DNA of 32,354 nucleotides, taken from assembly GCA_021816155.1 (NCBI GenBank), contig JAKAZA010000029.1, positions 1-32,354 on the forward strand. The letters run 5' to 3'. The notes beneath the pieces were generated by a model. That model ran no database searches and was not told the origin of the DNA. It was given only the letters and a program-made list of their open reading frames with translations. Shown here one piece after another: positions 1,280 to 28,656 of this stretch. Each line of letters starts with the position of its first letter. Positions within the stretch are counted from its first letter, which is position 1. The translations under genes were made by a program, and so were the position numbers. The DNA is from Pseudomonadota bacterium. GTDB taxonomy: Bacteria; Pseudomonadota; Alphaproteobacteria; Caulobacterales; Caulobacteraceae.

Positions 1280-2458
1280 TTGAGTCTGCACAGCTTCCAT
1301 CCGCCTCGTCGGATACTCATGGGGCCGGGCCCCTCGGATGTTTCGCCGCGCGTGCTCGCGGCGCTGGCGAGGCCCACCGTCGGCCACCTCGATCCGGCGT
1401 TCCAGGCGCTGATGGAGGAGATCAAGGCTGCGCTCGCCCTCGTGATGAAGGCGCCCGGCTATGCCTGCCTGCCGCTGCCCGCGCCCGGCACCGCCGGAAT
1501 GGAAGCGGCTATGATGAACCTGCTGGAGCCGGGCGACACGGCCGTGATCGCGGTCAACGGCCAGTTCGGCGAGCGCATGGCCGACATGGCCGCGCGCGCC
1601 GGGGCGTCAGTGGAGCGTTTCGAGCAGGCGTGGGGAACGCCGGTCGATCCCGCCCGGCTCGAGCCGATGCTGAAGGAGCGTCGGCCCAAGCTCGTGGCGC
1701 TCGTTCACGCCGAGACCTCCACCGGCGTTCTGACCGACCCGAAGCCGATCTGCGACCTCGCCCGCGCGGCCGGGGCGCTGACCGTGGTCGACTGCGTCAC
1801 CTCGCTGGGCGGCGTCGACGTGGACGCGGCTGGATGGGGTGCGGACGTGGTCTATTCAGGCACACAGAAGTGCCTCTCGGCGCCGCCGGGCCTGGCGCCG
1901 TTCGCCATGAGCCCGAGGGCCCTCGAGGCCGTCTCGGCGCGCAGGGAGAAGGTGCGCAACTGGCTGCTCGATATGTCGCTGATCATGGCCTACTGGGGCG
2001 GACAGGGCGGACGCACGTACCACCACACCGCCCCGATCAACGCGCTCTACGGTCTGCACGAGGCGCTCGTGGCGCTGCTCGAGGAAGGGCTGGACGTCGC
2101 CCACGCTCGCCATCGGCGCATGCACGAGGCGCTCGTCGCGGGCGTCGAGGCCGCCGGGCTGAAGCTGCTGGTGGCGCCGGAGCATCGGCTGCCCGAGCTG
2201 AACACTGTGCTCGTTCCCGACGGTGTCGACGAGGCCAAGGTGCGCGCCCACATGCTCGCCCGCTACGACCTCGAGATCGGCGCCGGCCTTGGCCCTCTGA
2301 AGGGGCGGATCTGGCGGATCGGGCTGATGGGCGCCTCGGCGACGCCGTGGCACGTGCGCCTGTGCCTCACCGCGCTCTGCGACGCGCTCGCCGCGCAGAA
2401 CTACCCCGACGCTTCGCGCCAGGCGCTGGCGGCGGCCGAGGCGAAGCTGTCGGGCTGA
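1280..2458 (+). CDS. Class V aminotransferase (alanine/serine-glyoxylate type)
   Basis: 392 residues from a TTG, preceded by GAGGG at good spacing; an ATG at 1319 would remove part of the conserved N-terminal GPGPSD strand, so TTG is preferred. This PLP enzyme moves an amino group from alanine or serine to glyoxylate. The PLP lysine is Lys197 in [12 protein letters not shown] and the ring-nitrogen aspartate is Asp171 in [10 protein letters not shown]. The [19 protein letters not shown] segment and C-terminal [16 protein letters not shown] match the AGXT1/SGAT branch. Length is normal. 2-aminoethylphosphonate transaminase (PhnW) is in the same fold class, but the motifs fit AGT better. Whether the in vivo donor is alanine, serine or another amino acid cannot be seen. 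Confidence 0.87.
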
Positions 2459-16508: not shown

Positions 16509-17387
16509 ATGCCAAGCTGGGACCACTACCGAACGCTTCTGGCGGTGCTGGACGAGGGCAGCCTGTCGGGCGCCGCGCGCGCGCTGGGGCTGACCCAGCC
16601 GACGGTCGGCCGCCACGTCGAGGCCCTGGAGGGCGAACTCGGCGCGCCGCTGTTCACCCGGTCGGGCGGGGGTCTCGCGCCGACCGAAGCGGCGCTCGCC
16701 TTGCGCCCGCACGCCGAGGCGATGGCCGCCGCGGCCGAGGCGCTGGCGCGCGCCGCCTCGGGGGAAGCGGAGGCCACGCGGGGCGTCGTCCGGGTCACCG
16801 CCGCGCACGTGGTCGGGGTCGAGGTGCTGCCGCCGATCCTCGCCAGCTTCCACGAGGCGCATCCGGAGGTGACGATCGAACTCGCCCTTTCCGACCGCTT
16901 CGAGGATCTGCTCCGCCGCGAGGCCGATATCGCGGTGCGCATGGCGCGCCCGGCGCAAGGGGCTCTGCTGGCCAGGCGCGTGGGCTCGGTGAGGCTCGGG
17001 CTGTACGCTCATCGCCGCTATCTCGAGGCTCACGGGGCTCCGACGGGCCTCGACGACCCGCGAGCGTCGTCGATCGGCTACGACAGGAACCTCCAGATGG
17101 AACGCGCGCTCGCCGAGCGGCAGCTGCGTGTGAGCCGCAAGATGTTCGCGTTCCGCTCGGACAGCGACCTCGCCCAGTTCGCGGCCCTGCGCGCCGGGTT
17201 CGGCGTCGGGGCCTGTCAGGCGCCCCTCGCCGCGCGCGATCCTGACCTGGTCGAGGTGCTCGGCGGCGACTTCCGCTACGAGATGGAGGTCTGGGTCGCC
17301 ATGCACGAGGACCTGAAGTCGAGCCGCCGCATGCGCCTGATGTTCGACGCATTGGTCGAAGGGCTGGAGGCCTACGTCAGGTCGTAA
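16509..17387 (+). CDS. LysR-family transcriptional regulator
   Basis: 292 residues from the ATG at 16509. Residues about 1-60 are the winged HTH: YRTLLAVLDEGSLSGAARALGLTQPTVGRHVEALEGELGAPLFTR, the standard LysR pattern. The remainder is the two-lobed effector-binding domain. No ribosome site is visible before the ATG; a putative -10 ends seven bases upstream, so the mRNA may be leaderless. The divergent epimerase gene and the shared repeat region suggest that it regulates itself and that gene. Its 3' end overlaps the AraC gene by 16 bases. The effector is unknown. Confidence 0.92.
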   Translation: MPSWDHYRTLLAVLDEGSLSGAARALGLTQPTVGRHVEALEGELGAPLFTRSGGGLAPTEAALALRPHAEAMAAAAEALARAASGEAEATRGVVRVTAAHVVGVEVLPPILASFHEAHPEVTIELALSDRFEDLLRREADIAVRMARPAQGALLARRVGSVRLGLYAHRRYLEAHGAPTGLDDPRASSIGYDRNLQMERALAERQLRVSRKMFAFRSDSDLAQFAALRAGFGVGACQAPLAARDPDLVEVLGGDFRYEMEVWVAMHEDLKSSRRMRLMFDALVEGLEAYVRS

Positions 17388-18439
17388 CCTGCGGGGCGCG
17401 TCCCGGCGCTGTCACCCCGGCGGAGGCGGGAAAGGTAGTCGCGCGGCGCCTCGCCGAACCGTCTTCGGAACCAGTGGCTGAAGCCGCTCTGGTCAGGGAA
17501 GCCGGCGAGATCGGAAATCTCGCCGAGCGCGCGTCCGGCGGCCATCATGGAGAGCGCCAGCTCGCGGCGCTTCTCGTCGAGCAGCGCGTGGTAGCCGCAG
17601 CCTTCGCGGGCGAGGCGGCGGTGCAGGGTGCGCCGGTCGACGCCAAGACGTCGCGCCACCTCGTCCGCCGAGCAGACGCCGGTCGGCAGCAGCAACACGA
17701 TGAGCTCGCCGACGGCGTCGCGGGCGCGGCGCCGTCGTGCGCCGGCGGCTTCCTCCGCCAGGCGCCGGGCTGGCTGCGCCGCCGGCGCGGCGCCGGCGAG
17801 CTGACGGTCCAGATCGCGGCGCGCGAGGACGAGACCGTCCAGTTCCGCCCGGAACTGCGGCGCCGCGCCGAACACCCGGCGGTGCGCGGCGAGGTCGGCC
17901 GGAGGGCCGTGCCGCAGCAGCACCTGGTCGGGCCGCCAGGCCTCGCCCAGCAACCCCCGGAGCGTCTCGGTCAGGACGCCGACGGCGAGCTCGACCGCCT
18001 GGCGCGAGACGCGACGCCCGCCGGCCTGGATCACAAGGCGCGCGACCGCGATGTCGCCATCCAGCTCCAAAGCCAGCGACAGCGCCTCGTTGTGCAGCCA
18101 CAAGAACTGGCCGAGGACCTCGAGCGCCTTGCGCATCGTGGGTTGCTCCCGCGCGATCGCGCCGACCGGGCCGAGGTTCGAGAGGCGGCGCGTGGCCGCG
18201 AGGCGCAGGCCGAAATCCTCGGCGCCGCCCGCCCTGGCCGAGCGTTCGAGCAACCGTCCGACCGCGTCGCTTGCGATCATCAGGTCCGGGTCGGCGAGCG
18301 CCTCCGCCGGAGCGCCCGCCTCGATCGCCATCCGCACCGGGTCCAGGCCGAGCGAGCGCGCCAGCTCGGCGTAACCGACGAGGCTTGCGCTGCGGATCAG
18401 TTGCGTCGCGGGTGCGGAAGACGCCTCCATGTCCCGCAT
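17372..18439 (-). CDS. AraC-family transcriptional regulator (arabinose-binding-domain type)
   Basis: 355 residues; the start could be the ATG at 18439 or the one at 18430, and neither has a good ribosome site. The N-terminal 200 or so residues match the ligand-binding domain of the OruR/ArgR-like subgroup (Pfam Arabinose_bd), including LGPVGAIAREQPTMRKALEVLGQFLWLHNEA. The C-terminal 100 residues hold the double HTH: SADEVARRLGVDRRTLHRRLAREG and ISDLAGFPDQSGFSHWFRRRFGEAPRDYL. It is divergent from the TauD-type dioxygenase with a 60-base gap, so it most likely controls that gene and perhaps the whole phosphonate region. That link is inference. Confidence 0.9.
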   Translation of the reverse strand: MRDMEASSAPATQLIRSASLVGYAELARSLGLDPVRMAIEAGAPAEALADPDLMIASDAVGRLLERSARAGGAEDFGLRLAATRRLSNLGPVGAIAREQPTMRKALEVLGQFLWLHNEALSLALELDGDIAVARLVIQAGGRRVSRQAVELAVGVLTETLRGLLGEAWRPDQVLLRHGPPADLAAHRRVFGAAPQFRAELDGLVLARRDLDRQLAGAAPAAQPARRLAEEAAGARRRRARDAVGELIVLLLPTGVCSADEVARRLGVDRRTLHRRLAREGCGYHALLDEKRRELALSMMAAGRALGEISDLAGFPDQSGFSHWFRRRFGEAPRDYLSRLRRGDSAGTRPAGYDLT

Positions 18440-18499
18440 TTACAAGCACGCCCGGCGCCGCGCCGCTACTTCGATGGCGGAAGCCTTCAGGAGGAACCG

Positions 18500-19378
18500 A
18501 TGCACTGGCAGGGCCGCGAAGCCGTCGAGGCGTTGATCGAGACGCAGCACGAGCCGTACGAAACGATCATGGTTCGCCCGCTCACCCCCGTGATCGGGGC
18601 CGAGATCGAGGGGGTCGACCTTTCGGGGGAGCTCTCCAATCTCCAGTTCGCCGAGGTGCGCCGCGCGCTCCTGGAGCATCTGGTGATCGTGTTTCGTGAC
18701 CAGCATCTGACCGCCGAAGACCACAAGCGGTTCGGGCGTCGGTTCGGCAAGCTGCACGTGCATCCCCTGCAGGCGATGCGCGAGGGCGATCCCGAGCGGC
18801 TGGTGATCAAGGCCGACAAGGACTCGAAATCGGTGGCGGGCGAAGGCTGGCATTGCGACGTCACCTGCGATGCGGAGCCGCCGATGGGTTCGCTGCTCTA
18901 CCTTACCGAGACGCCCAGCATCGGCTCCGGCGGCGACACGCTCTTCGCCAACATGTACCTGGCCTACGAGATGCTCTCGGCGCCGATGAAGGCGCTCCTT
19001 GAGCCGCTGACCGCCGTCCACGACGGTGCGATCCCCTGGGTGCAGGGCTACGGCTACCGCCCCAACGAGACGTTCCAGAAGAACGAGCATCCGGTCGTGG
19101 TCCGCCACCCGGAGACGGGGCGCAAACTTCTCTACGTGAACCGGGGCTTCACCTCGCACATCCGCGAGCTGGCCAGGTTCGAGAGCAGCGCGGTGCTGGA
19201 AATGCTCTACCGGCATATCGAGACGCAGCCGTCCCTGGCCTGCCGGGTGCGCTGGACGCCGAACACGCTGGTCTTCTGGGACAACCGCTGCACCCAGCAC
19301 CAGGCGATCTGGGACTATTACCCCCTGGACCGCGCCGGCTACCGCGTCTCGATCATCGGCGAGCGTCCAGCGGCCTGA
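18500..19378 (+). CDS. TauD/TfdA-family Fe(II)/2-oxoglutarate dioxygenase
   Basis: 292 residues from the ATG at 18500, with a textbook CAGGAGGAA ribosome site; the much longer open frame upstream is the antisense of araC. The family hydroxylates a carbon next to a sulfonate, ether, ammonium or similar group using O2 and 2-oxoglutarate. The iron triad is His118 and Asp120 (WHCD) and His267 (TQHQAIWD), with Arg282 near the end as the 2-oxoglutarate anchor. The substrate is not visible. TmpA and other dioxygenases hydroxylate the alpha carbon of aminoethylphosphonates ahead of a PhnZ-type enzyme; the PhnZ-like gene at 28108-28656 makes that role attractive here. Taurine or an aryloxy acid are alternatives. 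Confidence 0.9.
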   Translation: MHWQGREAVEALIETQHEPYETIMVRPLTPVIGAEIEGVDLSGELSNLQFAEVRRALLEHLVIVFRDQHLTAEDHKRFGRRFGKLHVHPLQAMREGDPERLVIKADKDSKSVAGEGWHCDVTCDAEPPMGSLLYLTETPSIGSGGDTLFANMYLAYEMLSAPMKALLEPLTAVHDGAIPWVQGYGYRPNETFQKNEHPVVVRHPETGRKLLYVNRGFTSHIRELARFESSAVLEMLYRHIETQPSLACRVRWTPNTLVFWDNRCTQHQAIWDYYPLDRAGYRVSIIGERPAA

Positions 19379-19385
19379 ACGAGGA

Positions 19386-21023
19386 TCAGGGCGTTGCGGC
19401 GACCCGGGTTCCGGCCGCGGCGCGCTGGGCCCAGGGATAGTCGGCCTTGCCGTTGGCGGCGCGGCGGACCTTGTCCACCACCACGAGGCGTCGCGGCGCC
19501 TTGTAGCCTGCGATGCGGCTGCGCACGAACGCCATGAGCTCCGCCTCGTCTAGCGCGCGGCCGGGCGCCAGCGACAGCACCGCCGTAATCCGCTGGCCGA
19601 AGCGCTCGTCCGGTTCGCCGACGACAAGGCAATCCTCGACGTCGGGGTGGGCCTTCAACGCCTCCTCGACCTCCTCGGGAAAGACCTTCTCGCCGCCGGT
19701 GTTGATACAGTTGGAGCCGCGGCCCATCAGGATCAGCGAGCCGTCCGCGGCGACCTTGGCGTAGTCGCCGGGGAACGAGTAGCGGTGGCCGCCGATCACG
19801 CGGAAGGTGCGCGCGCTCTTCTCCGGATCCTTGTAGTAGCCCTGCGGCGCCGCGCCGCCATTGGCGATCAGGCCGATCCTGTCCGAGCCGGGCTCGATTT
19901 CCTGGTCGTTCTCGTCGAACACCTTGGTGAGAGGATGGCGCGCGAACACCGCGGTCGGGCCGGGCGGGTTGGCGCGCGAGACGATCGAGACGCCCATCGA
20001 GCCCTCTGTGGCGGCGATCACGTCGTTGATGGTGACGTCCGCGTGCCGCAGGAGGCCAGCCTTGGTCTCGTGCGAGAACATCACGCCGGCGCTGAAGATC
20101 GATCGCAACGATCCGAGGTCGTAGGGCCGGCCGGCGGCCTCGGCGGCGTCGAGCGCGGCCAGCATCGGGCGGGCGAACGTATCGCCGACGATAGCCATGT
20201 GCGTGATCCGCTCCGCCCCGACCGTCCGCCAGATCGCGTCGGGATCGAAGTGCTCGTTGCGGCGGGTGACCGCGCAACCGGCGGCGAGCTGCGGGTTGTG
20301 CGCGCCGCCCGTCAGACCGGTCCCGTGCATCAGCGGGCAGGCGACGTAGCTGACCGGCGCCGCGCCCATCGCATGGAGGCGCCGGAATCCCTCGATCAAC
20401 TCTTCGCGGCCCTGCGGCCGCGGCAGCTTCGCGCTGTTGAAGGCCTGCGTCACGCCGGCGAGGGCTCGGTCGGCCTGATGCGACATGACGCCCTTGGGCA
20501 TCCCCGTGGTGCCGCCGGTGTAGACGATGAAGATGTCGTCCTCGGCGTAGTCCTGGCGCGTAAGCGGTGCGTGGGCCGCGATCACCTCCTCGAAGCGCGA
20601 CGCGCCTTCCAGATGGCGGCCGGACCCGTCTTCGATCTCGATCAGCGTACGCAGCATCGGCAGCTGGGCGCGGATCGCCTCGACGCGCGGGCCGAACTGC
20701 GCGGCGAACACCAGCGCCTCGGCGTCCGCGTTGGCCAGGAGGTACGCGAGTTCGCCCTCTGTGTAGCGGTAGTTGACGTTGAACGGCGTCGCGCGGGCCT
20801 TGAAGGCCCCGTAGTAGGCCTCGAGAAACTCGCTGCAATTGTAGCTGTAGACCGCGATCTTGCCGCCCGGCCCGTGCCCGGCCGCGACGAGCGCGCCGGC
20901 CAGCCGCGCCGCCCGGTCCTCGTAATCGCGCCAGCGTCGCCGCACCCGCTCGTCCGCCACCGCCGGCGCATCGGGAACCGCGTCGGCGACCGCATCCCAC
21001 ACCGCCGCCAGATGCCACTTCAT
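19386..21023 (-). CDS. Acyl-CoA synthetase (AMP-binding, FadD-like)
   Basis: 545 residues from the ATG at 21023-21021, preceded by AGGGGAAA; the open frame beyond it is a shadow. The enzyme activates a carboxylic acid as acyl-AMP and transfers it to CoA. The adenylation P-loop is IVYTGGTTGMPKGV (about 166-179). The A8 hinge and core run through GRGSNCINTGGEKVFPEEVEEAL, and the C-terminal catalytic lysine lies in ANGKADY. DYAKVAADGSLILMGRG precedes the hinge as usual. It is convergent with the dioxygenase (7-base gap) and divergent from the FAD oxidoreductase. It may be unrelated to phosphonate use. The acid chain length cannot be read. Confidence 0.9.
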   Translation of the reverse strand: MKWHLAAVWDAVADAVPDAPAVADERVRRRWRDYEDRAARLAGALVAAGHGPGGKIAVYSYNCSEFLEAYYGAFKARATPFNVNYRYTEGELAYLLANADAEALVFAAQFGPRVEAIRAQLPMLRTLIEIEDGSGRHLEGASRFEEVIAAHAPLTRQDYAEDDIFIVYTGGTTGMPKGVMSHQADRALAGVTQAFNSAKLPRPQGREELIEGFRRLHAMGAAPVSYVACPLMHGTGLTGGAHNPQLAAGCAVTRRNEHFDPDAIWRTVGAERITHMAIVGDTFARPMLAALDAAEAAGRPYDLGSLRSIFSAGVMFSHETKAGLLRHADVTINDVIAATEGSMGVSIVSRANPPGPTAVFARHPLTKVFDENDQEIEPGSDRIGLIANGGAAPQGYYKDPEKSARTFRVIGGHRYSFPGDYAKVAADGSLILMGRGSNCINTGGEKVFPEEVEEALKAHPDVEDCLVVGEPDERFGQRITAVLSLAPGRALDEAELMAFVRSRIAGYKAPRRLVVVDKVRRAANGKADYPWAQRAAAGTRVAATP

Positions 21024-21091
21024 GCCGTTTCCCCTGCGTGCTTTCTTCGCCTCATCTAACGGCCGCGAACCCAGGTCGACAATCGGCCGCC

Positions 21092-21105
21092 CGGCGGAAC
21101 CGCCG
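21092..21105. promoter_or_regulatory. Palindrome in the divergent acyl-CoA synthetase / FAD oxidoreductase region
   Basis: CGGCGG, AA, CCGCCG form a 14-base palindrome with six-base arms, 85 bases before the FAD oxidoreductase ATG. It is a candidate operator, but short GC-only palindromes arise easily by chance in this DNA. Confidence 0.22.
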
Positions 21106-21123
21106 CCCACCCTCAGGAGGAGG

Positions 21124-21180
21124 ATGATTGTGTCAAAGACGGCGCCTATACGGGGCTGTCCGCAGGTCGGGGAAACATGA
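21124..21180 (+). CDS. Possible 18-residue leader ORF before the FAD oxidoreductase
   Basis: An 18-codon ORF starts at ATG 21124, directly after AGGAGGAGG (21115-21123), the best ribosome-binding sequence in this intergenic region. The spacing suits the in-frame GTG at 21130 better than the ATG. Its TGA overlaps the FAD oxidoreductase ATG as ATGA, the usual layout of translational coupling. The FAD gene itself has only a weak GGGGAA site. The peptide (MIVSKTAPIRGCPQVGET) matches nothing I know. It could be a leader peptide that delivers ribosomes to the next gene, or a chance ORF. Confidence 0.4.
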   Translation: MIVSKTAPIRGCPQVGET

Positions 21181-22322
21181 CGACACAAGCCTTCGATCTC
21201 GCCGTGGTCGGCGGCGGCGTCATCGGGCTGGCGCACGCCTACGTCGCGGCGCGCGCCGGCCGGCGCGTGGCGGTGATCGAGCGTGACGCCCACGCCAACG
21301 GCGCCTCGATCCGCAACTTCGGCTTTGTCACGGTGACCGGCCAGGCGCGGGGCGACGGCTGGCGCCTGGCGCGACGCACGCGGGATGTCTGGGCCGACGT
21401 GGCTCCCAAGGCGCGGATTCCGCTCGAGCATCGCGGCCTCTGGCTCACCGCCCGGTCGAACGAGGCCGTCGCGGTGGTCGAGGCGTTCCTGGCGACCGAG
21501 ATGGGCGACGGATGCCGGTTCGCGGACGCGGCGACGTTCCGGCGCGAGAGCGGCGGTCTTGGCGGAGCGGACCTGAAGGGCGCGCTCTTCAGCCCCCACG
21601 AGGTGCGCGTCGAGTCGCGCGCCGCGATCCCGCGTCTCGCAGCTTGGCTCGCCGAGGCGATGGGCGTGACGTTCTTCAACGAGACCGTGGTGTTCGAGGC
21701 GGCGCCGCCAGCCCTCGGGACCTCGCGCGGCCGGATCGAGGCCGGCGCCGTCGTCGTCTGCCCCGGCGACGACTTCGTCACGCTCTATCCGGACCGCATC
21801 GCGGCCTACGCCCTGCGCAAGTGCCGGCTATCGATGCTGAAACTCGCCGACCCTGGCTTCAGGCTGCCCGCGGCGCTCATGTCGGACCTCGGCCTCGTGC
21901 GCTACCAGGGCTACGCGGAGCTCCCCGAGGCGCGGGCGCTCGAGGCGCGGTTGCGGGCCGAGCACCCCGACTGCTTCGCGAACGGCGTCCACCTCATCGT
22001 GGCGCAGGGCGCCGACGGCGGCCTGATCGTTGGCGACAGCCACCACTACGACCATCTGCCGGCCCCGTTCGCCCCGGCCGAAGCCGAGCGCTGCATCCTT
22101 GAGGAGTACGCCCGTGCGACCGGCCGCGCCGCGCCGCCAGCACTCGAACGCTGGACCGGCGTCTATGCGGTCGCGGACGATCGCAGCTACCTGATCGACG
22201 CGCCGGCTGACGGCGTGCGGCTGGTGATCGTGACCAGCGGCACGGGCGCCTCCACCGGCTTCGCCATCGCCGAGCGCGTGCTGGGCGACCTGATGGGTCT
22301 CGAAGTGGGGACGACGGCATGA
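21177..22322 (+). CDS. FAD-dependent amine oxidoreductase of phosphonate operons (HpnW/PbfD-like)
   Basis: 381 residues. The N-terminal dinucleotide fold is VVGGGVIGLAHAY (10-22), and ERDAHANGASIRNFGFV (about 35-51) with its RNFG is characteristic of the family proposed as HpnW (TIGR03364), DAAO-type flavoproteins encoded beside phosphonatases. DRSYLIDAP and TSGTGASTGFAIAERV near the end complete the FAD site. The predicted reaction is oxidation of 2-aminoethylphosphonate or an N-methyl or hydroxy derivative to phosphonoacetaldehyde; I recall the name PbfD for members shown to do this. Its last 4 bases overlap phnX (ATGA), so product and next substrate match. It would replace the usual PhnW transaminase, which is absent here. 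Confidence 0.82.
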   Translation: MTTQAFDLAVVGGGVIGLAHAYVAARAGRRVAVIERDAHANGASIRNFGFVTVTGQARGDGWRLARRTRDVWADVAPKARIPLEHRGLWLTARSNEAVAVVEAFLATEMGDGCRFADAATFRRESGGLGGADLKGALFSPHEVRVESRAAIPRLAAWLAEAMGVTFFNETVVFEAAPPALGTSRGRIEAGAVVVCPGDDFVTLYPDRIAAYALRKCRLSMLKLADPGFRLPAALMSDLGLVRYQGYAELPEARALEARLRAEHPDCFANGVHLIVAQGADGGLIVGDSHHYDHLPAPFAPAEAERCILEEYARATGRAAPPALERWTGVYAVADDRSYLIDAPADGVRLVIVTSGTGASTGFAIAERVLGDLMGLEVGTTA

Positions 22323-23116
22323 GCTTCCCGGTCAAAGCCGTGGTGTTCGACTGGGCGGGCACCGTGATCGACTTCGGGTGCATGGCGCCGGTCCGGGCGT
22401 TGATCGAGGTCTTCGCGGCCGAGGGCGTGGCGCTGTCTGACGCCGAGGCGCGGCGGGACATGGGCAAGGCAAAGCTCGACCACCTGCGCGCGCTGCTCGC
22501 CGACCCTGACGTGGCCCCGCGCTGGCGGGTGTTGAAGGGCGCGGCGGCGACCGACGCCGACGTGGCTCGTCTGTACGCCCGCCTCGAGCCGGCGATGAAG
22601 GCCGCCGCGGCGGCCGCTGCGACCCTGATCCCCGGCGCCGCCGGGACTGTCGCCGAGCTGCGCGCACTGGGCGTGAAGATCGGCTCGGGCACAGGCTACA
22701 CGCGCGAGATGATGGGGCCGATCCTGCCGCGCGCCGCGGAGCAAGGCTACGCGCCCGACGTAGTGGTCTGCGCCGGCGAGACGCCGAGCGGCCGTCCGTC
22801 GCCGCTTATGACCTGGAAGGCGCTGATCGAACTCGACGCCTGGCCCGCCAGGGCCTGCGTCAAGGTCGACGACGCGGCTGTGGGGATCGAGGAAGGGCGG
22901 CTGGCCGGCTGCTGGACGGTCGGCGTCTCGGCCTCAGGCAATGGCATGGGCCTCGACCGTCCCGCCTATCTCTCGCTGCCCGCCGCGGAGCGCGCCGCGC
23001 GGCTGGCCGGCGCTGAACGGGAGCTGCGCGCGGCGGGAGCCGATTTCGTGATCGAGGACGTCTCGCAGCTGATCCCCGTCGTGCGCCAGATCGCAGAGCG
23101 CATCGCCGCCGGTTGA
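22319..23116 (+). CDS. phnX: Phosphonoacetaldehyde hydrolase (phosphonatase)
   Basis: 265 residues; the ATG overlaps the FAD oxidoreductase stop. PhnX hydrolyses phosphonoacetaldehyde to acetaldehyde and phosphate. It is a HAD enzyme that forms an imine with the substrate through a cap-domain lysine. Visible are the nucleophile Asp11 in VFDWAGTVIDFG, Schiff-base lysine Lys52 in MGKAKLDHLRALL, the GSGTGYTREMM loop, GYAPDVVVCAGETPSGRPSP, and the acidic KVDDAAVGIEEGRLAGCWTVGV that binds Mg2+. All catalytic elements are present and the length is normal, so it should be active. It is the clearest evidence that the region degrades phosphonates. Confidence 0.94.
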   Translation: MSFPVKAVVFDWAGTVIDFGCMAPVRALIEVFAAEGVALSDAEARRDMGKAKLDHLRALLADPDVAPRWRVLKGAAATDADVARLYARLEPAMKAAAAAAATLIPGAAGTVAELRALGVKIGSGTGYTREMMGPILPRAAEQGYAPDVVVCAGETPSGRPSPLMTWKALIELDAWPARACVKVDDAAVGIEEGRLAGCWTVGVSASGNGMGLDRPAYLSLPAAERAARLAGAERELRAAGADFVIEDVSQLIPVVRQIAERIAAG

Positions 23117-23123
23117 GGCCGAC

Positions 23124-23145
23124 CGCACGACGGGACCTCCGTGCG
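23124..23145 (+). terminator. Small hairpin after phnX
   Basis: CGCACG (23124-23129) pairs with CGTGCG (23140-23145) over a ten-base loop, 8 bases after the phnX stop. GTGCG can instead pair with CGCAC at 23153-23157, so two mutually exclusive stems are possible. No T-run follows. It could mark the end of the phnX message, but may be chance in GC-rich DNA. Confidence 0.25.
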
Positions 23146-23179
23146 CCGCCGTCGCACAAGTGTCGGCAAATATTCAATT

Positions 23180-23201
23180 CGGTGAAATACAAGCTTCACC
23201 G
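23180..23201. promoter_or_regulatory. Perfect inverted repeat, candidate operator for the TonB receptor
   Basis: CGGTGAA (23180-23186) and TTCACCG (23195-23201) are perfect inverted copies separated by eight bases. The site lies in a locally AT-richer stretch 150 bases before the receptor ATG. The 22-base dyad has the size of a dimeric repressor or activator site. The same element was not seen elsewhere in the window. Confidence 0.45.
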
Positions 23202-23246
23202 TAGCGTTATGCCCCGAGCTCATAGAACCATCAGGAACAAGCTGGC

Positions 23247-23265
23247 TCGCGATAGCTGATCGCGA
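23247..23265. promoter_or_regulatory. Second perfect inverted repeat upstream of the TonB receptor
   Basis: TCGCGAT (23247-23253) and ATCGCGA (23259-23265) are perfect inverted copies around AGCTG. It lies 86 bases before the receptor ATG and could be an operator or, if transcribed, a seven-base-pair hairpin with a five-base loop in the leader RNA. Its sequence differs from the dyad at 23180. Confidence 0.45.
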
Positions 23266-23351
23266 CCCGGGCTGAACTTGCGCGCGGAGACGGGGGTCAG
23301 AGGCGCGCCACACGTGACCGATCTGATTGGCGAAAGCTTGGGGGCTTACCA

Positions 23352-26054
23352 ATGAAGGGCAAGTATCTGATCTCGTGCGCCATTGCGGCTATCGCCGCCG
23401 GCGCCGCCGCCGACGCCTGGGCGGCGGACAACACGGCGGCCACCGCGGACGCGGCCAGCGTCAATAGCTCGTCCGCGGTGAGCGAAATCGTCGTCACCGC
23501 GGAGCGGCGCTCGGAGGACGTGCAGTCCGTGCCGATGACGCTTCAGGCGCTGGGCAGCGTCGCGCTCTCGCAGCAGAACGTGCTCGGCCTGTCAGATCTC
23601 ATCAAGTACACGCCCAACGTCACGTTCGGTTCGAGCGGCCCTGGCCAAGGCGTGGTCTTCATGCGTGGCCTCTCCACCGGCGTGCAGGGCAACCAGTCGA
23701 GCGCCACCATCGGCCTCTTTCCGAACGTCGCTATCTACCTCGACGACCAGTCGCTGCAGTTCCCTGGCCGCAACGTCGACCTCTACGTAGTCGATATGCA
23801 GCGGGTCGAGGTCCTGGAGGGACCGCAGGGCACGCTCTTCGGCGGCGGCGCCGAGGCCGGCGCGATCCGCTACATCACCAACAAGCCGAACCTGGGCGCA
23901 TATGAAGGCAGCGCCGAGGCGCAGGGCGGCGTCACCAGCGGGGGCAACCCGAACTACGCCTTCAACGCGGTGATCAACATCCCGCTGGTGACCGACAGGC
24001 TCGCCGTCCGCGCCGTCATCTACGATGACCGCCAGGGCGGCTACATCGACAACGTCCCCAGCACGTTCACCAGGTCCAACAACGACCTCGGCAACACCTA
24101 TTTCAACATCCATCCAAACGCGCGGAATATCTGCCCGAACGGACTTCCGGGGGGCGGGCCGCACGATCTTTGCACCCTGCCGAATGCGCCTCAGGCCAAC
24201 AACTACCAACTCGCGCGCAACAACTTCAATCCGGTCGAGTACCAGGGCGCGCGGATCTCGGCGCTGTTCGACATAAACGACGACTGGAGCGTGCTGATCT
24301 CACAAAGCTTCCAGCTTCTTGACGCCGAGGGGCTCGACCAGCAGTACCCGATCGGCTCCGATTTCCAGGCGTTGAAGCCGCTCCAGGTCACCTCGTTCGC
24401 GCCGTCGTGGGATCGCGACAGTTTTTCGAACACGGCCTGGACCGTAAACGGCAAGATCGGACCGCTGCACGCGATATACACTGGAAGCTACCTGCTGAGG
24501 CACATCAACCAGCAGGAGGACTACTCAAACTATTCACGCTCGACCGGCGGCATGTACTACCAGTGCACCGGCGGCGGCACCGGCTTCGGCGCCGGTCCGC
24601 CGACCTGCTTCTCGCCGGTGTCGAGTTGGCTCGACGTGGTGCGCAACACGCACCTCAGCAACGAGTTCCGCGTCTCCACGCCGGACGACTGGCGGCTGCG
24701 CGGCATCGCGGGGGTCTACCAGGAGAACTTCCGCATCTACGACGTGATGAACTTCAACTACAAATCCATCCCGGCCTGCACGCCTCAGAATCTGGCGATC
24801 GCGCAGCAGCCCGGCGGACAGCCCTGCCTCGCCGACACCAGCACGGCGCCGGGGTCGACGGCGAACGTGCCAGGCGTGCGGCCCGACAACACCGCGTTCG
24901 GCGAGGATATCCAGCGCGGCTACGACCAGGTGGCGCTCTTTGGCTCGGTGGACTTCGACATCATCCCGGATGTGCTGACGGTCAGCGCCGGCACGCGTTG
25001 GTATCAGTACAAGGAATACGAGGTCGGCTCCCAGTACGAGACCGGAGCGGAGTGTCTGAACGTGCCGAACGGCCAGTGCGGCCCTGGAAGCAACGTCAAC
25101 ATCAACGCCCATAACGACCACGCCACCTATTCGGGCTTCCGCAGCCGCGCCAACGTCACCTGGAGGGTGAACCCGAACGCGATGGCCTACTTCACGTTCT
25201 CGCAGGGCTTCCGTCCCGGCGGCTTCAATCGCTCGGCCGGTCTCGTCGCGCCGCTGACGGCCGGCGGGCCGGCTCAGTTCAATAAGCCCAACGCCTACGC
25301 CCCCGACTCGCTGACCAACTACGAGTGGGGCTTGAAGAGCGAGTTCCTCGATCACCGACTGCTGCTCAACCTTTCCGTCTACTACATGCAGTGGGACAAT
25401 GTTCAGCTGCTCTTCTTCAACCCGACGGAACTCGGCAACACGACGTTCGGTGTCAACGGCCCGAACTACGTTGTGAAGGGCGGCGAGCTCCAGTTCGTCG
25501 CCAAGATCACCGACAGCCTGACTATCCAGGGCTCGGGCAGCTACAACGACGACACGCAGGCCAACTCGCCGTGCCTGAAGAACAACGTGCCCGGCACACC
25601 TGGTTTCGGCGGCTGTATCACGCAGGTCTACCAGAAGGGTGTCGGCGTCGTGCCGTTCCTCAATCCGTTCGGCCTTGTCGGCTCGACCCCGGCCTTCTCG
25701 CCGAAGTTCGAGGGCGACATCGTGGCGCGCTACGAATGGATGATCGGCGACTTCAAGGCGCACGCCCAGATCGGGGCGAACTACATGGGCAGCATGTACA
25801 ACCAGCCGGCCACCTACACGTCCGGGGTCGGGGTGCTCGTCCCGAACACGACGCTGCTGCGCTACGAGATGCCGGCCTACGCCACGCTCGACGCGGCGAT
25901 CGGCGTCGCCAAGGACAACTGGTATCTCGAACTCTACAGCGAGAACCTGACGGACTCGAACGCCAGCACGTTCACGAGTTCGGCCCAGTTCATCAAGTCG
26001 GAGGTCCCTTTGAGGCCGCGGATCGTCATGCTCAAGATCGGCGCGCACTACTGA
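23352..26054 (+). CDS. TonB-dependent outer-membrane receptor
   Basis: 900 residues. A Sec signal peptide (basic start, alanine-rich core, cleavage near AWA-AD at about 25) is followed by a TonB box-like SEIVVTAERR (about 44-53). The plug domain (about 55-175) contains VEVLEGPQGTLFGGGAEAGAIRYITNKP, the typical end of the plug. The rest is a 22-strand barrel rich in aromatic and Asn residues and ends in RIVMLKIGAHY, with the C-terminal aromatic residue needed for outer-membrane insertion. Such receptors import large or scarce ligands using TonB energy. It follows phnX after a 235-base leader with two perfect dyads and precedes the TPR-sulfotransferase. A phosphonate-containing ligand is possible but unproven. 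Confidence 0.93.
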   Translation: MKGKYLISCAIAAIAAGAAADAWAADNTAATADAASVNSSSAVSEIVVTAERRSEDVQSVPMTLQALGSVALSQQNVLGLSDLIKYTPNVTFGSSGPGQGVVFMRGLSTGVQGNQSSATIGLFPNVAIYLDDQSLQFPGRNVDLYVVDMQRVEVLEGPQGTLFGGGAEAGAIRYITNKPNLGAYEGSAEAQGGVTSGGNPNYAFNAVINIPLVTDRLAVRAVIYDDRQGGYIDNVPSTFTRSNNDLGNTYFNIHPNARNICPNGLPGGGPHDLCTLPNAPQANNYQLARNNFNPVEYQGARISALFDINDDWSVLISQSFQLLDAEGLDQQYPIGSDFQALKPLQVTSFAPSWDRDSFSNTAWTVNGKIGPLHAIYTGSYLLRHINQQEDYSNYSRSTGGMYYQCTGGGTGFGAGPPTCFSPVSSWLDVVRNTHLSNEFRVSTPDDWRLRGIAGVYQENFRIYDVMNFNYKSIPACTPQNLAIAQQPGGQPCLADTSTAPGSTANVPGVRPDNTAFGEDIQRGYDQVALFGSVDFDIIPDVLTVSAGTRWYQYKEYEVGSQYETGAECLNVPNGQCGPGSNVNINAHNDHATYSGFRSRANVTWRVNPNAMAYFTFSQGFRPGGFNRSAGLVAPLTAGGPAQFNKPNAYAPDSLTNYEWGLKSEFLDHRLLLNLSVYYMQWDNVQLLFFNPTELGNTTFGVNGPNYVVKGGELQFVAKITDSLTIQGSGSYNDDTQANSPCLKNNVPGTPGFGGCITQVYQKGVGVVPFLNPFGLVGSTPAFSPKFEGDIVARYEWMIGDFKAHAQIGANYMGSMYNQPATYTSGVGVLVPNTTLLRYEMPAYATLDAAIGVAKDNWYLELYSENLTDSNASTFTSSAQFIKSEVPLRPRIVMLKIGAHY

Positions 26055-26081
26055 GCCAGCCGGCCGCCCGGTGAGGAACTC

Positions 26082-28097
26082 ATGGACGCTTCCGCCGACA
26101 TGGCTGTGCGATTCCCAGTCGAGCTCGAGCTCGACCGGCTTCGGAGGCTGCAGAAGGAGGGCCGGCACGACGCGGCGCTGGCCAGCGCGCGGGCGCTGCT
26201 GGCCGACCTGCCGGAGAACCGCGACCTCCTGCTGGCCGAGGCGGTGAGCCTGCGCCACCTGCTGCGCCTCAGCGAGGCCCTGGCCAGCCTGGAGCGTCTG
26301 CAGCGCCTGCGCCCGCGGTTCAGCCGGCTCTTTGAGGAGCGCGGCCTGTGCTTCGTCGTGATGCGGGATGCGCCGCGGGCGATCGAGGCGCTGCTCACGG
26401 CCGTCAACATCAACCCGGCGCTGCCGGGCAGCTGGCGGATGCTGCACGGCCTCTACCGGCTGACCGGCGATGCGGCCGGCGCCGAGACGGCAGCCGAACA
26501 CGTGGCGACGCTGGCGCGGCTTCCGGCGGAGGTGGTGGCCGCCACCTCGCTGTTCTGCGACGGCGAGCTTGCGCGCGCCGAGGAGGTGACGCGCGCGTTC
26601 CTCCTGCGCCACGGCGACCATCCGGAGGCGATGCGGCTACTGGCGCGGATCGGCCTGGCCCACGGCGTGCTCGACGACGCGGAGACGCTGCTCGAAGCGG
26701 TGCTCGCGATGGAGCCGGGCTACCCGGCCGCAAGGCGCGACTACGCCGACTGCCTGGCCCGCCGCCAGAAGTACCCGCGGGCCCGCGCCCAGATCGACCA
26801 ACTCCGCGCGCTGACGCCCGACGATCCCGAGGTCCTGGCGCTGGCCGCGACCGTGGCCGTGGGGCTGGGCGAGCAGGACGAGGCGATCGGCCTCTATCGG
26901 CGGATGCTGGCGAAGGCGCCGGACTCGCCGGACGCCAACCTCTGGCTCGGGCACGCGCTGAAGACCGTCGGCCGGCTCGAGGAGGCCGTCGACGCGTACC
27001 GCAGGGCCGCCGCTGCCCGTCGAGACTTCGGCGACGCCTATTGGAGCCTCGCCAACCTCAAGACCTACCGTTTCACCGACGCCGAGATTGAGCGCATGCG
27101 GGCCGAAGAGGCCGCGCCCATGACCCAGGCCGACGACCGCGCCCATCTCTGCTTCGCGCTTGGCAAGGCGCTCGAAGACCGCGGCGAGACCGCGGAATCC
27201 TGGGCGTTCTACGCCCGCGGCAACGCCCTCAAGCGCGCCGAGAGCCGCTACCGCCCCGAGATCCTGGAAACCAACACCCGGCTGCAAAAGGAGGTCTGTA
27301 CGGCGGCCTTTTTCGCGCGCCGCGCCGGCTGGGGAGACCCCCGGCCGGACCCGATCTTCATCGTGGGCCTGCCGCGCTCCGGCTCGACGCTGATCGAACA
27401 GATCCTCGCCTCGCACACCGACGTGGAGGGCACCCAGGAACTGGCCGACATCCAGCGCGTCGCGCTCGACCTGCAGGGTCGGGAGCACGACCTCGACAAT
27501 CCGCGCTACCCGGCGTCGCTGGTCGCGCTAACCGCCAGCGACTGCCGGCGCCTCGGCGAAAGCTACCTCGCCGATACGCAAGTCTACCGCGCCGCGGCGC
27601 GGCCTTTCTTCATCGACAAGATGCCGAACAACTTCCGTCACATCGGGCTCATCCACCTGATGCTGCCCAATGCGCGGATCATCGACGCGCGGCGCGAGCC
27701 GATGGCGTGCTGCTTCAGCAACCTCAAGCAGCTGTTCGCCAACGGCCAGGAGTTCGCCTACAGCGCCGAGGATATCGGCCGCTACTACCGCACCTACCTC
27801 GAATTGATGCGCCACTGGGATGAAGTCCTGCCCGGCAAGGTGCTGCGCGTGCGGCACGAGGACGTCGTCGACGACCTGGAAGGGAGCGTGCGGCGTCTCC
27901 TCGACCACTGCGGCCTCGACTTCCAGCCCGGCTGTATCGAGTTCCACCGCACCCGGCGCAGCGTGCGCACGCCGAGCTCGGAACAGGTGCGCCAGCCGAT
28001 CTTCCGAGACAGCCTCGACCAATGGCGTCGCTACGAGGCTTGGCTCGGACCGCTGAGGGACGCGCTCGGCGACGCCACGGAGCGCTACCGCGACTGA
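26082..28097 (+). CDS. TPR-repeat sulfotransferase family protein
   Basis: 671 residues from an ATG preceded by GAGGAAC, 27 bases after the receptor gene, so they are probably one operon. About 1-400 is a chain of tetratricopeptide-like helices (clear units around 250-345, e.g. GEQDEAIGLYRRMLAKAPDS and GRLEEAVDAYRRAAAARRDF). The C-terminal domain is a PAPS-dependent sulfotransferase: the 5'-phosphosulfate loop FIVGLPRSGSTLIEQI at 426-441 and the 3'-phosphate region IDARREPMACCFSNL at 534-548. No signal peptide or membrane segment is seen, so it is likely cytosolic. TPR-sulfotransferases commonly follow TonB receptors in Caulobacterales and Sphingomonadales. Their substrate is, to my knowledge, undefined. 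Confidence 0.88.
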   Translation: MDASADMAVRFPVELELDRLRRLQKEGRHDAALASARALLADLPENRDLLLAEAVSLRHLLRLSEALASLERLQRLRPRFSRLFEERGLCFVVMRDAPRAIEALLTAVNINPALPGSWRMLHGLYRLTGDAAGAETAAEHVATLARLPAEVVAATSLFCDGELARAEEVTRAFLLRHGDHPEAMRLLARIGLAHGVLDDAETLLEAVLAMEPGYPAARRDYADCLARRQKYPRARAQIDQLRALTPDDPEVLALAATVAVGLGEQDEAIGLYRRMLAKAPDSPDANLWLGHALKTVGRLEEAVDAYRRAAAARRDFGDAYWSLANLKTYRFTDAEIERMRAEEAAPMTQADDRAHLCFALGKALEDRGETAESWAFYARGNALKRAESRYRPEILETNTRLQKEVCTAAFFARRAGWGDPRPDPIFIVGLPRSGSTLIEQILASHTDVEGTQELADIQRVALDLQGREHDLDNPRYPASLVALTASDCRRLGESYLADTQVYRAAARPFFIDKMPNNFRHIGLIHLMLPNARIIDARREPMACCFSNLKQLFANGQEFAYSAEDIGRYYRTYLELMRHWDEVLPGKVLRVRHEDVVDDLEGSVRRLLDHCGLDFQPGCIEFHRTRRSVRTPSSEQVRQPIFRDSLDQWRRYEAWLGPLRDALGDATERYRD

Positions 28098-28107
28098 CGC
28101 TGAGTTC

Positions 28108-28656
28108 TCAGCGCGCGAGGCGCAGCAGCAGCGGGCGGTGGCGCCCGAGATCGCCGACCTGCGCGCCGATCACCTTGGCCGCGTCGTCCCATCGGCGCAG
28201 GCGGACCGCCTCGTGCGCGAATGGGCGTCGCGCAAACGCCGCCGCTTCGGGCGCTTCGAACGGGCCGCCCTGCAGGTGAAGGCTCAGTTGAGAGGCGGGG
28301 CTCAGGGCGTCGCGGTAGCCGGGCGCAACGGCGCAGAGGTGGCGCTTGGCCGAGACGTGCAGCGCGATCGGCCGGGTCACCTCGGGTCCGAACCATGCCG
28401 ACAAGGCGAGCGCGCCGACGGCCTCGTGCTCGGCGTCGACGCCCTCGGCCTCAGCCATGCGCCCGCGGTCTTCGACGAGATGGCCGTAGTCGTGCAGCAG
28501 CGCGGCCGCCACGAGGCTGTCCGGCGCACCCGCCCGCTCGGCCAGCGCGGCGCACTGCAGGGCGTGTTCGAGCTGGCTGACGCCCTCGCCGTAGTGTTCG
28601 CCGCCGCGACGCAGGAAGAGCGCGAGGATGTCCTCGATCGCCGCTTCAGCCCTCAT
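28108..28656 (-). CDS. PhnZ-like HD-domain di-iron oxygenase (phosphonate-associated)
   Basis: 182 residues from the ATG at 28656-28654, preceded by GGAGG; the longer open frame is not real. It matches the HD proteins of phosphonate operons, typified by PhnZ, which use mixed-valence di-iron and O2 to split 1-hydroxy-2-aminoethylphosphonate into glycine and phosphate. The six PhnZ ligands as I recall them (His34, His58, Asp59, His80, His104, Asp161) fall on His31, His55, Asp56, His77, His100 and Asp157, at constant offsets of 3 or 4. Substrate residues Glu27 and Lys108 correspond to Glu24 and Lys104. Tyr24 is replaced by His21, with a Tyr next to it. It converges on the TPR-sulfotransferase (10-base gap). 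A general HD phosphohydrolase is the alternative. Confidence 0.8.
   Translation of the reverse strand: MRAEAAIEDILALFLRRGGEHYGEGVSQLEHALQCAALAERAGAPDSLVAAALLHDYGHLVEDRGRMAEAEGVDAEHEAVGALALSAWFGPEVTRPIALHVSAKRHLCAVAPGYRDALSPASQLSLHLQGGPFEAPEAAAFARRPFAHEAVRLRRWDDAAKVIGAQVGDLGRHRPLLLRLAR

Follow-up and report, generated by a model that had tools for sequence, protein, structure and literature searches.

The stretch of DNA analysed here, 32,354 nucleotides long and referred to as the window in its entirety, contains a locus that, judging by family assignments and gene context, probably serves aminophosphonate scavenging in a Caulobacteraceae bacterium and has its own outer-membrane entry. The unit consists of five genes at 21177-28656, encoding a PbfD-type FAD oxidase, PhnX, a TonB-dependent receptor (TBDR), a TPR-sulfotransferase and a PhnZ-like HD oxygenase. 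From the gene context we infer that the receptor and the sulfotransferase form an outer-membrane uptake module for aminophosphonates, and its recurrence beside several phosphonate-breaking pathways in relatives points to an undescribed uptake route. The combination of PbfD and PhnX without phnW, also together with an HD gene, is already published; the new part is the receptor.

The first gene (21177..22322, + strand) encodes a PbfD-type (HpnW, TIGR03364) FAD-dependent aminophosphonate oxidase, scoring 388.9 bits against a cut-off of 285.1, and overlaps by 4 bp with phnX (22319..23116, +), the gene for phosphonoacetaldehyde hydrolase (TIGR01422, 329.4 against 220 bits), an arrangement that the preliminary description had correctly recognised. 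By family, the oxidase would convert 2-aminoethylphosphonate (AEP) or N-methyl-AEP to phosphonoacetaldehyde, from which PhnX would then yield acetaldehyde and phosphate. The window PhnX has Asp11 and Lys52, which we take to be the nucleophile and Schiff-base positions (B. cereus residue positions), and the matches listed for it contain seven solved relatives, each a phosphonoacetaldehyde hydrolase or a similar protein. According to the available text of PMC10590968, PbfD1 of A. baumannii carries the TIGR03364 annotation, other PbfD enzymes have been shown to do such chemistry, and the route from AEP or N-methyl-AEP through PbfD and PhnX without phnW is already described as a pathway. The absence of phnW noted earlier was also seen in a profile search of the genome assembly from which the window comes, recorded as 94% complete: no PhnW passed the cut-off. 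The best hit, a class V aminotransferase at window positions 1313-2386, was considered as a hidden PhnW and rejected on its score (179 against 361 bits). A C-P lyase was likewise rejected for this genome: no PhnJ was found in the assembly, with a positive control in E. coli.

The receptor gene (23352..26054, +) encodes both Pfam domains over their cut-offs (Plug 46.8 bits, TonB_dep_Rec_b-barrel 66.6 bits), and its place as a true member of the locus, claimed before, is upheld by its co-occurrence and clustering with phosphonate genes among relatives. In 99 related genomes, TBDR and pbfD were found together in 18, TBDR only in three, pbfD only in nine and neither in 69 (Fisher 1.8e-10; the pbfD count leaves out FAD-query matches weaker than 1e-100). 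All 21 genomes with the TBDR have pbfD or the HD gene, and 18 of them have pbfD. Both genome size and kinship push up co-occurrence figures of this kind, and as a gauge of the inflation a loosely defined TauD set too reaches a p of 1.8e-4; within the genus alone, the association of TBDR and pbfD has a p of 0.005 (9, 0, 2, 5 genomes in the same order). Of the 18 genomes that have the two genes, 11 do not show them within 10 kb of each other (ten on separate contigs, one at about 13 kb), and nine pbfD genomes are without such a TBDR.

A search with the receptor only, blind to its neighbours, gave 576 confirmed loci, of which the best 79 were kept. Phosphonate-degradation genes lie within the fetched flanks in 35 of these 79, so that the linkage extends across lineages and several pathways, among them PbfD-PhnX, PhnW-PhnX, PhnA-PhnY-PhnW and C-P lyase (examples checked by NCBIfam/Pfam). 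The linkage follows the TBDR score, with phosphonate genes at 32 of the 52 loci scoring at least 1200 against 3 of the other 27. The remaining 44 of the best 79 have no phosphonate-degradation gene in their flanks (several are short contigs), and none was found near the 39% TBDR homologs in two genomes (L136, L137). The C-P lyase label covers 11 loci, with PhnG, H, I and J all present in only eight; the Dyella species D. nitratireducens (L188) has a C-P lyase version of the receptor locus. The other three of the 11 (L166, L167, L179) have DUF5690 and a TIGR03364-type FAD gene together with homologs of PhnM and PhnF.

The tightest arrangements are co-directional operons. At locus L158 the TBDR gene is followed after 7 bp by the sulfotransferase gene, then by pbfD (4-bp overlap), phnX (15 bp) and DUF5690 (4-bp overlap). 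Novosphingobium nitrogenifigens DSM 19370 (L192) has a single tight operon of TBDR and, 94 bp on, the sulfotransferase gene, followed by pbfD, phnX and DUF5690, each with a 4-bp overlap. In the receptor tree the PhnX label needs 16 changes against 23.4 when shuffled, and the C-P lyase label (in its 11-locus form) 2 against 10.6, with none of 500 shuffles as low in either case. Six loci judged to lie on contigs already represented by G010, G041, G053, G015, G011 and G047 were kept out of the tree, the HD alignment and the gene-order and distance counts, and are still counted in the 79-locus tallies; L144 was also left out of the HD alignment, the gene-order count and the distance comparison. 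The structure model of the receptor is poor (pLDDT 54.5) and tells nothing about the ligand, and a listing of its conserved tyrosines near acids discriminates nothing.

Directly behind the receptor gene (27 bp) lies the gene for the TPR-sulfotransferase (26082..28097, +), confirmed as such by Pfam Sulfotransfer_3 (174.9 bits) and TPR matches. It is co-directional with and directly behind the TBDR gene in 81 of 102 gene calls, and the distances of the two proteins are correlated (Mantel r 0.68, none of 999 permutations as high, with species kinship uncontrolled). A phosphonate-specific role was rejected because TPR-sulfotransferases also sit by other TonB receptors: in genome G034, for instance, at least 6 of 11 Sulfotransfer_3 places are within 4 kb of a plug match, among the matches listed. 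The sulfotransferase belongs with the receptor and not with the phosphonate chemistry. Together, as read from gene context, receptor and sulfotransferase would carry a compound of the AEP type, either free or in a small conjugate, through the outer membrane.

The sulfotransferase (AlphaFold2 model, pLDDT 88.8) has an OGT-like TPR superhelix, and the protein-tyrosine sulfotransferases 8w5z and 5wrj are among the nearest solved sulfotransferases; these features suggest, with low certainty, that the acceptor is a protein (the receptor or a partner). That the enzyme acts instead on the ligand or on a cell-surface glycan is a tentative alternative of appreciable probability, given that Sulfotransfer_3 domains act on many acceptors, even though the superhelix and the structurally solved tyrosine sulfotransferases lean to a peptide. 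The fold search has little bearing on this point (the matches shown are TPR proteins), and the same receptor-sulfotransferase pairing at betaine loci (see below) argues against a phosphonate acceptor.

Besides a free or small aminophosphonate, the imported ligand might be a phosphonolipid, or a head-group fragment freed extracellularly by phospholipase C, which we consider possible if somewhat unlikely. A phosphocholine-specific phospholipase C (TIGR03396) reaches 740 bits at L041 of genome G029 and 767 bits at L186, against 580, and the gene adjoins HD, pbfD or phnX in G029 and G048. A fragment of it adjoins the TBDR in G054 (by sequence cluster), and it is also present at L186, L226 and L182 (the last by cluster). 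An AEP-type head group is moreover the usual form of a phosphonolipid. Against this, phospholipase C is found in a minority of the loci and is absent from the window, and its family is named for phosphocholine and not for phosphonate. A large ligand such as a phosphonolipid is possible for the receptor, given that phospholipase C genes adjoin HD, pbfD or TBDR in some relatives.

The receptor family is not restricted to phosphonates, as 19 of the best 79 loci (of 576) carry betaine-, choline- or sarcosine-type genes (BetA-, GbcA- or SoxA-like, all named below curated cut-offs), with no overlap with the 35 phosphonate loci. It might be argued that the receptor-sulfotransferase pair is a general importer of methylated or zwitterionic amines, such as betaine, choline and sarcosine with their lipid or phosphono analogues, the phosphonate genes being one neighbourhood among others. 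N-methyl-AEP and trimethyl-AEP chemically resemble betaine, and in the tree 11 of the 23 betaine-labelled rows fall inside the clade holding the phosphonate-linked rows (including a subclade of seven betaine and four unlabelled rows), while 12 branch outside. Nonetheless, we regard general amine uptake as unlikely: the best-scoring TBDRs are mostly accompanied by phosphonate genes (32/52) and rarely by betaine genes (5/52), and amine uptake alone leaves unexplained that several unrelated C-P cleavage systems share the receptor. The ligand class may still be broader than phosphonates, because the 19 other loci carry betaine/choline-type genes.

For aminophosphonates taken up through the receptor, an inner-membrane carrier would have to move the ligand on; in many relatives this is perhaps the DUF5690 protein. 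This uncharacterised family often accompanies the receptor loci (19 of 23 DUF5690 genomes also have pbfD), forms its own Pfam family without a PDB profile match at E 0.01, and was not found in the window's own assembly; our literature search found no paper on it. A more ambitious proposal would be a general aminophosphonate import module of TBDR, DUF5690 inner-membrane permease and a cytoplasmic sulfotransferase with OGT-like TPRs that sulfates the receptor or a partner for maturation, combined in turn with PbfD-PhnX, PhnW-PhnX, PhnW-PhnA-PhnY or C-P lyase. As a whole we consider it improbable.

Convergent with the sulfotransferase gene, the last gene of the unit (28108..28656, -) encodes PhnHD, a PhnZ/TmpB-like HD-domain di-iron oxygenase (TIGR03276, 219.5 against 214.6 bits). 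The preliminary description had proposed two adjoining C-P cleavage enzymes, hydrolytic PhnX fed by the FAD oxidase and an oxidative PhnZ-type HD protein with every metal ligand of PhnZ, and both statements hold: all six ligand positions are present (H31, H55, D56, H77, H100 and D157 in window protein numbering). PhnHD would add an oxidative route of C-P cleavage to the hydrolytic one, acting on phosphonates that arrive already 1-hydroxylated. An ordinary phosphohydrolase without a role in C-P cleavage is quite unlikely. It would be in line with the gating Tyr-x-x-Glu loop (Y24...E27 in PhnZ/TmpB), which is one residue shorter here (Y22-G23-E24) and does not show YxxE, and the available text of PMC11203657 speaks of bimetal hydrolases that share this ligand motif. 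However, the matches listed contain four solved relatives, namely TmpB (6npa) and three PhnZ chains, the ligands together with Lys104, Ser122 and Gln129 are conserved in 26 of 27 aligned rows (an alignment without L144, L129 and the six duplicate-contig loci), and the gene occurs in 19 of 27 pbfD genomes against 3 of 72 other relatives. The loop Tyr is kept in 25 of the 27 rows, and Y-L-G-E is found in other homologs (for example L130 and L176).

The TauD-type dioxygenase (18500-19378) is a neighbour of the locus and not a member, being separated from the FAD gene by an acyl-CoA synthetase gene on the other strand (19386-21023). Of the five-gene co-occurrence expected among relatives, the links of TBDR and of HD with pbfD stood, whereas the dioxygenase, earlier taken as part of the locus, was rejected: none of 26 pbfD loci of relatives has a match of at least 60 bits, and its three closest homologs (64-83%) adjoin an AraC gene on other contigs, one of them in a genome without pbfD. 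The protein stays below the taurine dioxygenase equivalog score (235 against 313 bits) and, aligned to E. coli TauD, keeps His70, His99, Asp101 and Arg270 and lacks Tyr73 and Asn95, two of the taurine-binding positions. It is close to PlaO1, TauD and RdpA-like enzymes and has no match to the GBBH-like_N domain; the assembly search for a GBBH-like_N (TmpA/PhnY*-type) protein found none, its controls being likewise silent, and no such 2-oxoglutarate hydroxylase adjoins the HD gene. The suggested chain, in which this dioxygenase hydroxylates a phosphonate for cleavage by the HD enzyme, is very improbable on these grounds, even with the two genes within about 9 kb and with the PhnY*/PhnZ and TmpA/TmpB pairs working likewise (as given in the available text of PMC8177086).

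Phosphonates make up a large pool of organic phosphorus. A receptor common to hydrolytic, PhnWAY and C-P lyase systems would account for the access of oligotrophs to dilute or lipid-bound phosphonates. Its linkage also provides an initial clue to the function of the DUF5690 family, and the puzzling pairing of TonB receptor and TPR-sulfotransferase becomes testable in type strains.

Among known systems, the PbfD2-PhnX pathway similarly has a PbfD-type FAD enzyme beside phnX, no phnW and the same proposed chemistry, but the main text of PMC10590968 is without TonB, outer membrane or sulfotransferase. The Achromobacter cluster shares HpnW (TIGR03364), PhnX and PhnHD (TIGR03276) without phnW; unlike the window it has its own phnSTU ABC importer and LysR, and the main text of PMC11203657 does not bring up TonB, outer membrane, sulfotransferase or receptor. 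PhnY*/PhnZ and TmpA/TmpB have all di-iron ligands in common with the window HD enzyme, whereas their partner 2-oxoglutarate hydroxylase was not found in the window and the loop reads Y-G-E instead of Y-x-G-E. For transport, inner-membrane carriers for phosphonates are known: AepXVW, AepP and AepSTU likewise represent dedicated aminoethylphosphonate uptake tied to phn genes, with no mention of TonB, outer membrane or porin in the available text of PMC8316502. The DUF5690 proteins of the relatives belong to a separate Pfam family. The literature searched contained no outer-membrane phosphonate receptor, and in a 2023 review phosphonates are presumed to enter by the porin PhoE, likewise an outer-membrane route though a passive one, without TonB in its available text (PMC10574752). 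In contrast to PhoE, the receptor encoded within the window's operon is of an energised type. The TonB-dependent nutrient receptors known from Caulobacter, sphingomonads and xanthomonads also combine plug and barrel, with their genes beside catabolic genes; the window receptor differs from these in its regular TPR-sulfotransferase partner and its phosphonate neighbourhood.

The window, a complete contig of 32,354 bases in an assembly (G000) of 3.6 Mb and 188 contigs, contains an aminophosphonate-degradation locus in which known enzymology stands next to an undescribed, recurrent outer-membrane module. The forward strand carries the genes for an FAD oxidase, pbfD (21177-22322; TIGR03364, 388.9 bits against a cut-off of 285.1), PhnX (22319-23116; TIGR01422, 329.4 against 220 bits), a TonB-dependent receptor (TBDR) with Pfam plug and barrel domains (23352-26054) and a TPR-sulfotransferase (ST; 26082-28097; Pfam Sulfotransfer_3, 174.9 bits). 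Gaps of 235 bp and 27 bp separate phnX from the TBDR gene and the latter from ST. A PhnZ/TmpB-like HD protein (PhnHD) is encoded on the reverse strand (28108-28656; TIGR03276, 219.5 against 214.6 bits). An FzlA gene (372 bits against a cut-off of 300) would put the assembly in the family Caulobacteraceae. The same contig holds, 19 kb from pbfD, a class V aminotransferase gene (1280-2458) with PhnW-like and BhcA-like scores of 179 and 212 bits, all far under the cut-offs.

Homologs were counted in 99 relatives (own genome included) at E < 1e-100 for pbfD, E <= 1e-120 for the TBDR and E <= 1e-15 for the HD gene, and were found in 27, 21 and 22 genomes, respectively. TBDR and pbfD occur together in 18 genomes, with the TBDR only in 3, pbfD only in 9 and neither in 69 (Fisher test, 1.8e-10); the corresponding counts are 18, 3, 6 and 32 inside the window's family (p = 1.7e-7) and 9, 0, 2 and 5 inside its genus (p = 0.005). 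None of the 21 genomes with the TBDR lacks both pbfD and the HD gene. The distance between TBDR and pbfD is at most 10 kb in 7 of the 18 shared genomes (G000, G001, G006, G010, G034, G047 and G054) and about 13 kb in G025, while the two are on different contigs in the remaining 10. Copies of the TBDR remote from pbfD adjoin a gene of the uncharacterised family DUF5690 (G002, G011, G015, G035, G058, G041) or the HD gene (G012, G025, G041). As background, four genomes gave 206 plug matches; among the matches listed at least five lie within 10 kb of pbfD, two of these five being the TBDR, and the window's own TBDR is additional to the listed matches.

The tie between the TonB receptor and phosphonate genes, suggested in the preliminary description, is borne out further by a search blind to gene neighbours. 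An alignment of 17 TBDRs, picked solely as receptor homologs, was run against 84,980 species, each represented by a single genome; at least 596 stretches matched the peptide pattern, 576 encode a relative, and the best 80 of these 576 represent 79 distinct loci. Of these 79 loci, 35 have phosphonate-degradation genes within the retrieved flanks (32 of 52 with a TBDR score of at least 1200 bits, 3 of 27 below), and three further loci have DUF5690 without such genes. Several pathways are represented: PbfD-PhnX in 16 of the 35 (among them Caulobacteraceae, Novosphingobium, Rhodospirillales and several gammaproteobacterial assemblies), C-P lyase with PhnG, H, I and J in 8 (Dyella, Rhodanobacter and one Lysobacterales assembly), PhnM and PhnF together with DUF5690 and an FAD gene of the TIGR03364 type in 3 (L166, L167, L179, all Dyella), PhnX-PhnW with PhnS in 2 (L178, L195), PhnA-PhnY in 2 (L199, with PhnW, and L204, where the end of the contig truncates PhnA), a lone PhnX in 1 (L168) and the HD gene without other phosphonate genes in 3 (L160, L169, L193). 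In the examples scored with family models, PhnW examples reach 506 and 496 bits against a cut-off of 401, PhnS examples 377 and 408 against 310 (NF011620), yet under the TIGR03227 cut-off, and L199 scores 588 against 408 for PhnA, 846 against 636 for PhnY and 509 against 401 for PhnW. In further examples PhnF, G, H, K, L, M and N exceed their cut-offs, and PhnI and PhnJ are identified by Pfam. The Dyella locus L167 has its TIGR03364 FAD enzyme (401 bits) near the TBDR, and also a TIGR03351-type PhnX-like hydrolase at 204.5 bits, under the cut-off of 218.9.

Gene order points in the same direction. Of 102 receptor gene calls, 81 have ST downstream in the same direction at a distance of at most 350 bp (median gap, 70 bp), and in 19 of the 102 a phosphonate or DUF5690 gene belongs to the same run (gaps of at most 350 bp). 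Compact examples are L158 (TBDR, 7 bp, ST, -4, pbfD, 15, phnX, -4, DUF5690), L046 (ST, 3 bp, pbfD, -4, phnX) and the N. nitrogenifigens DSM 19370 locus L192 (TBDR, 94 bp, ST, then pbfD, phnX and DUF5690, each with a 4-bp overlap). A quick tree (LG+G4) built from 106 receptors places every row labelled with a phosphonate system in a single large clade of 82 rows with a support of 100. The PhnX label requires 16 changes against 23.4 when shuffled, and the C-P lyase label (11 rows, the three PhnM/PhnF loci counted in) 2 against 10.6; for both, none of 500 shuffles was as low. The TBDR-ST pair would therefore probably act in aminophosphonate uptake across the outer membrane.

The family is not restricted to phosphonates, given that 11 of 23 betaine-labelled rows lie within the phosphonate-linked clade (12 beyond), 7 of them forming a subclade with 4 unlabelled rows, and that this subclade is adjoined by the tandem TBDR copies of L192, L217 and L218, whose gene neighbours hold pbfD-phnX. 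In L210, L211, L213, L228 and similar loci, TBDR-ST is found beside choline dehydrogenase-, glycine betaine monooxygenase- and sarcosine oxidase-like genes. Five loci (L208, L215, L222, L225 and L229) have the pair near a homolog of a phosphonate-binding-like protein (PF12974; model check in L208), four of them with a fatty acid desaturase-like gene (model check in L215).

Since ST accompanies receptors of phosphonate loci, betaine loci and more distant TonB receptors (L139, L143), we assign it to the receptor. It has OGT-like TPRs, and the nearest solved sulfotransferases of its domain include protein-tyrosine sulfotransferases; the fold matches shown for its AlphaFold2 model (pLDDT 88.8) are TPR proteins. 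One might speculate that ST sulfates the receptor. The pairing is general, as TPR-sulfotransferase genes also adjoin more distant TonB receptors in G034 and other Caulobacteraceae genomes, and the literature search returned no relevant-looking report of it. Locus L144 (G048:C1:355000-372000) groups several protein-modification-type enzymes around one TonB receptor of a different kind: PLC-HD-PhnX-pbfD is followed by two aspartyl/asparaginyl hydroxylase-like genes, ST and a Sulfotransfer_2 gene.

DUF5690 (PF18943), which might be an inner-membrane permease, occurs in 23 of the 99 relatives and was not found in the window's assembly; 19 of these 23 genomes also have pbfD. It adjoins pbfD-phnX or the TBDR-ST pair, and in Dyella (e.g. 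L188) it lies upstream of C-P lyase genes. Its profile matched no PDB sequence at E 0.01, and no mention of it was found in the literature searched.

The solved relatives of the window's HD protein are TmpB (6npa, 118 bits) and PhnZ (4mlm, 93 bits). As stated earlier, every PhnZ metal ligand is present in the alignment (H31, H55, D56, H77, H100, D157); together with Lys104, Ser122 and Gln129 these are conserved in 26 of 27 homolog rows. The claim holds with one difference: the gating loop, described as Tyr-x-x-Glu for PhnZ and TmpB in PMC8177086, is Y22-G-E24 and thus one residue shorter. Other homologs, e.g. L130 and L176, have Y-L-G-E, and the L176 protein scores highest on the TmpB model (262 against a cut-off of 300). 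Any substrate assigned to the window's PhnHD is putative.

A TauD-family dioxygenase (18500-19378, forward strand; 235.1 of the 313 bits needed for taurine dioxygenase in NCBIfam) had been proposed to feed the HD enzyme, and we reject it as a member of the system: at 60 bits or more, neither it nor the AraC regulator (17372-18439, reverse strand) has a homolog in the 26 pbfD loci of relatives (two on contigs below 7 kb), and its three closest homologs (83, 79 and 64%; G009, G010, G035) are on other contigs, each adjoined by an AraC homolog, with G009 lacking pbfD. Co-occurrence with pbfD gives p = 1.8e-4 for a loosely defined TauD set and p = 0.06 for close homologs, values that genome size and kinship alone could produce. 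The expected co-conservation in related genomes is seen for the TBDR and pbfD, and not for the dioxygenase. The divergent AraC/TauD-type pair (17372-19378) recurs in the three genomes. In the window it is adjoined by an acyl-CoA synthetase gene (19386-21023, reverse strand), which has one partial match (95 bits, L049) in the 26 loci.

No description of a TBDR of this kind for phosphonates was found in the literature searched, which mostly lay outside subscription journals; in the review PMC10574752, porins such as PhoE are the presumed entry for phosphonates. The "two routes" of the preliminary description are already covered by two papers. According to PMC10590968, PbfD enzymes, among them PbfD1 of A. 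baumannii with its TIGR03364 annotation, oxidise N-methyl-AEP (AEP, 2-aminoethylphosphonate) and also AEP to phosphonoacetaldehyde, PbfD2 being efficient on AEP, and pbfD and phnX alone make up a pathway. PMC11203657 reports for Achromobacter a combination of HpnW (TIGR03364), PhnX and PhnHD (TIGR03276) that lacks phnW, and does not settle what PhnHD does. This Achromobacter set resembles the window, which likewise combines HpnW, PhnX and PhnHD in the absence of phnW.
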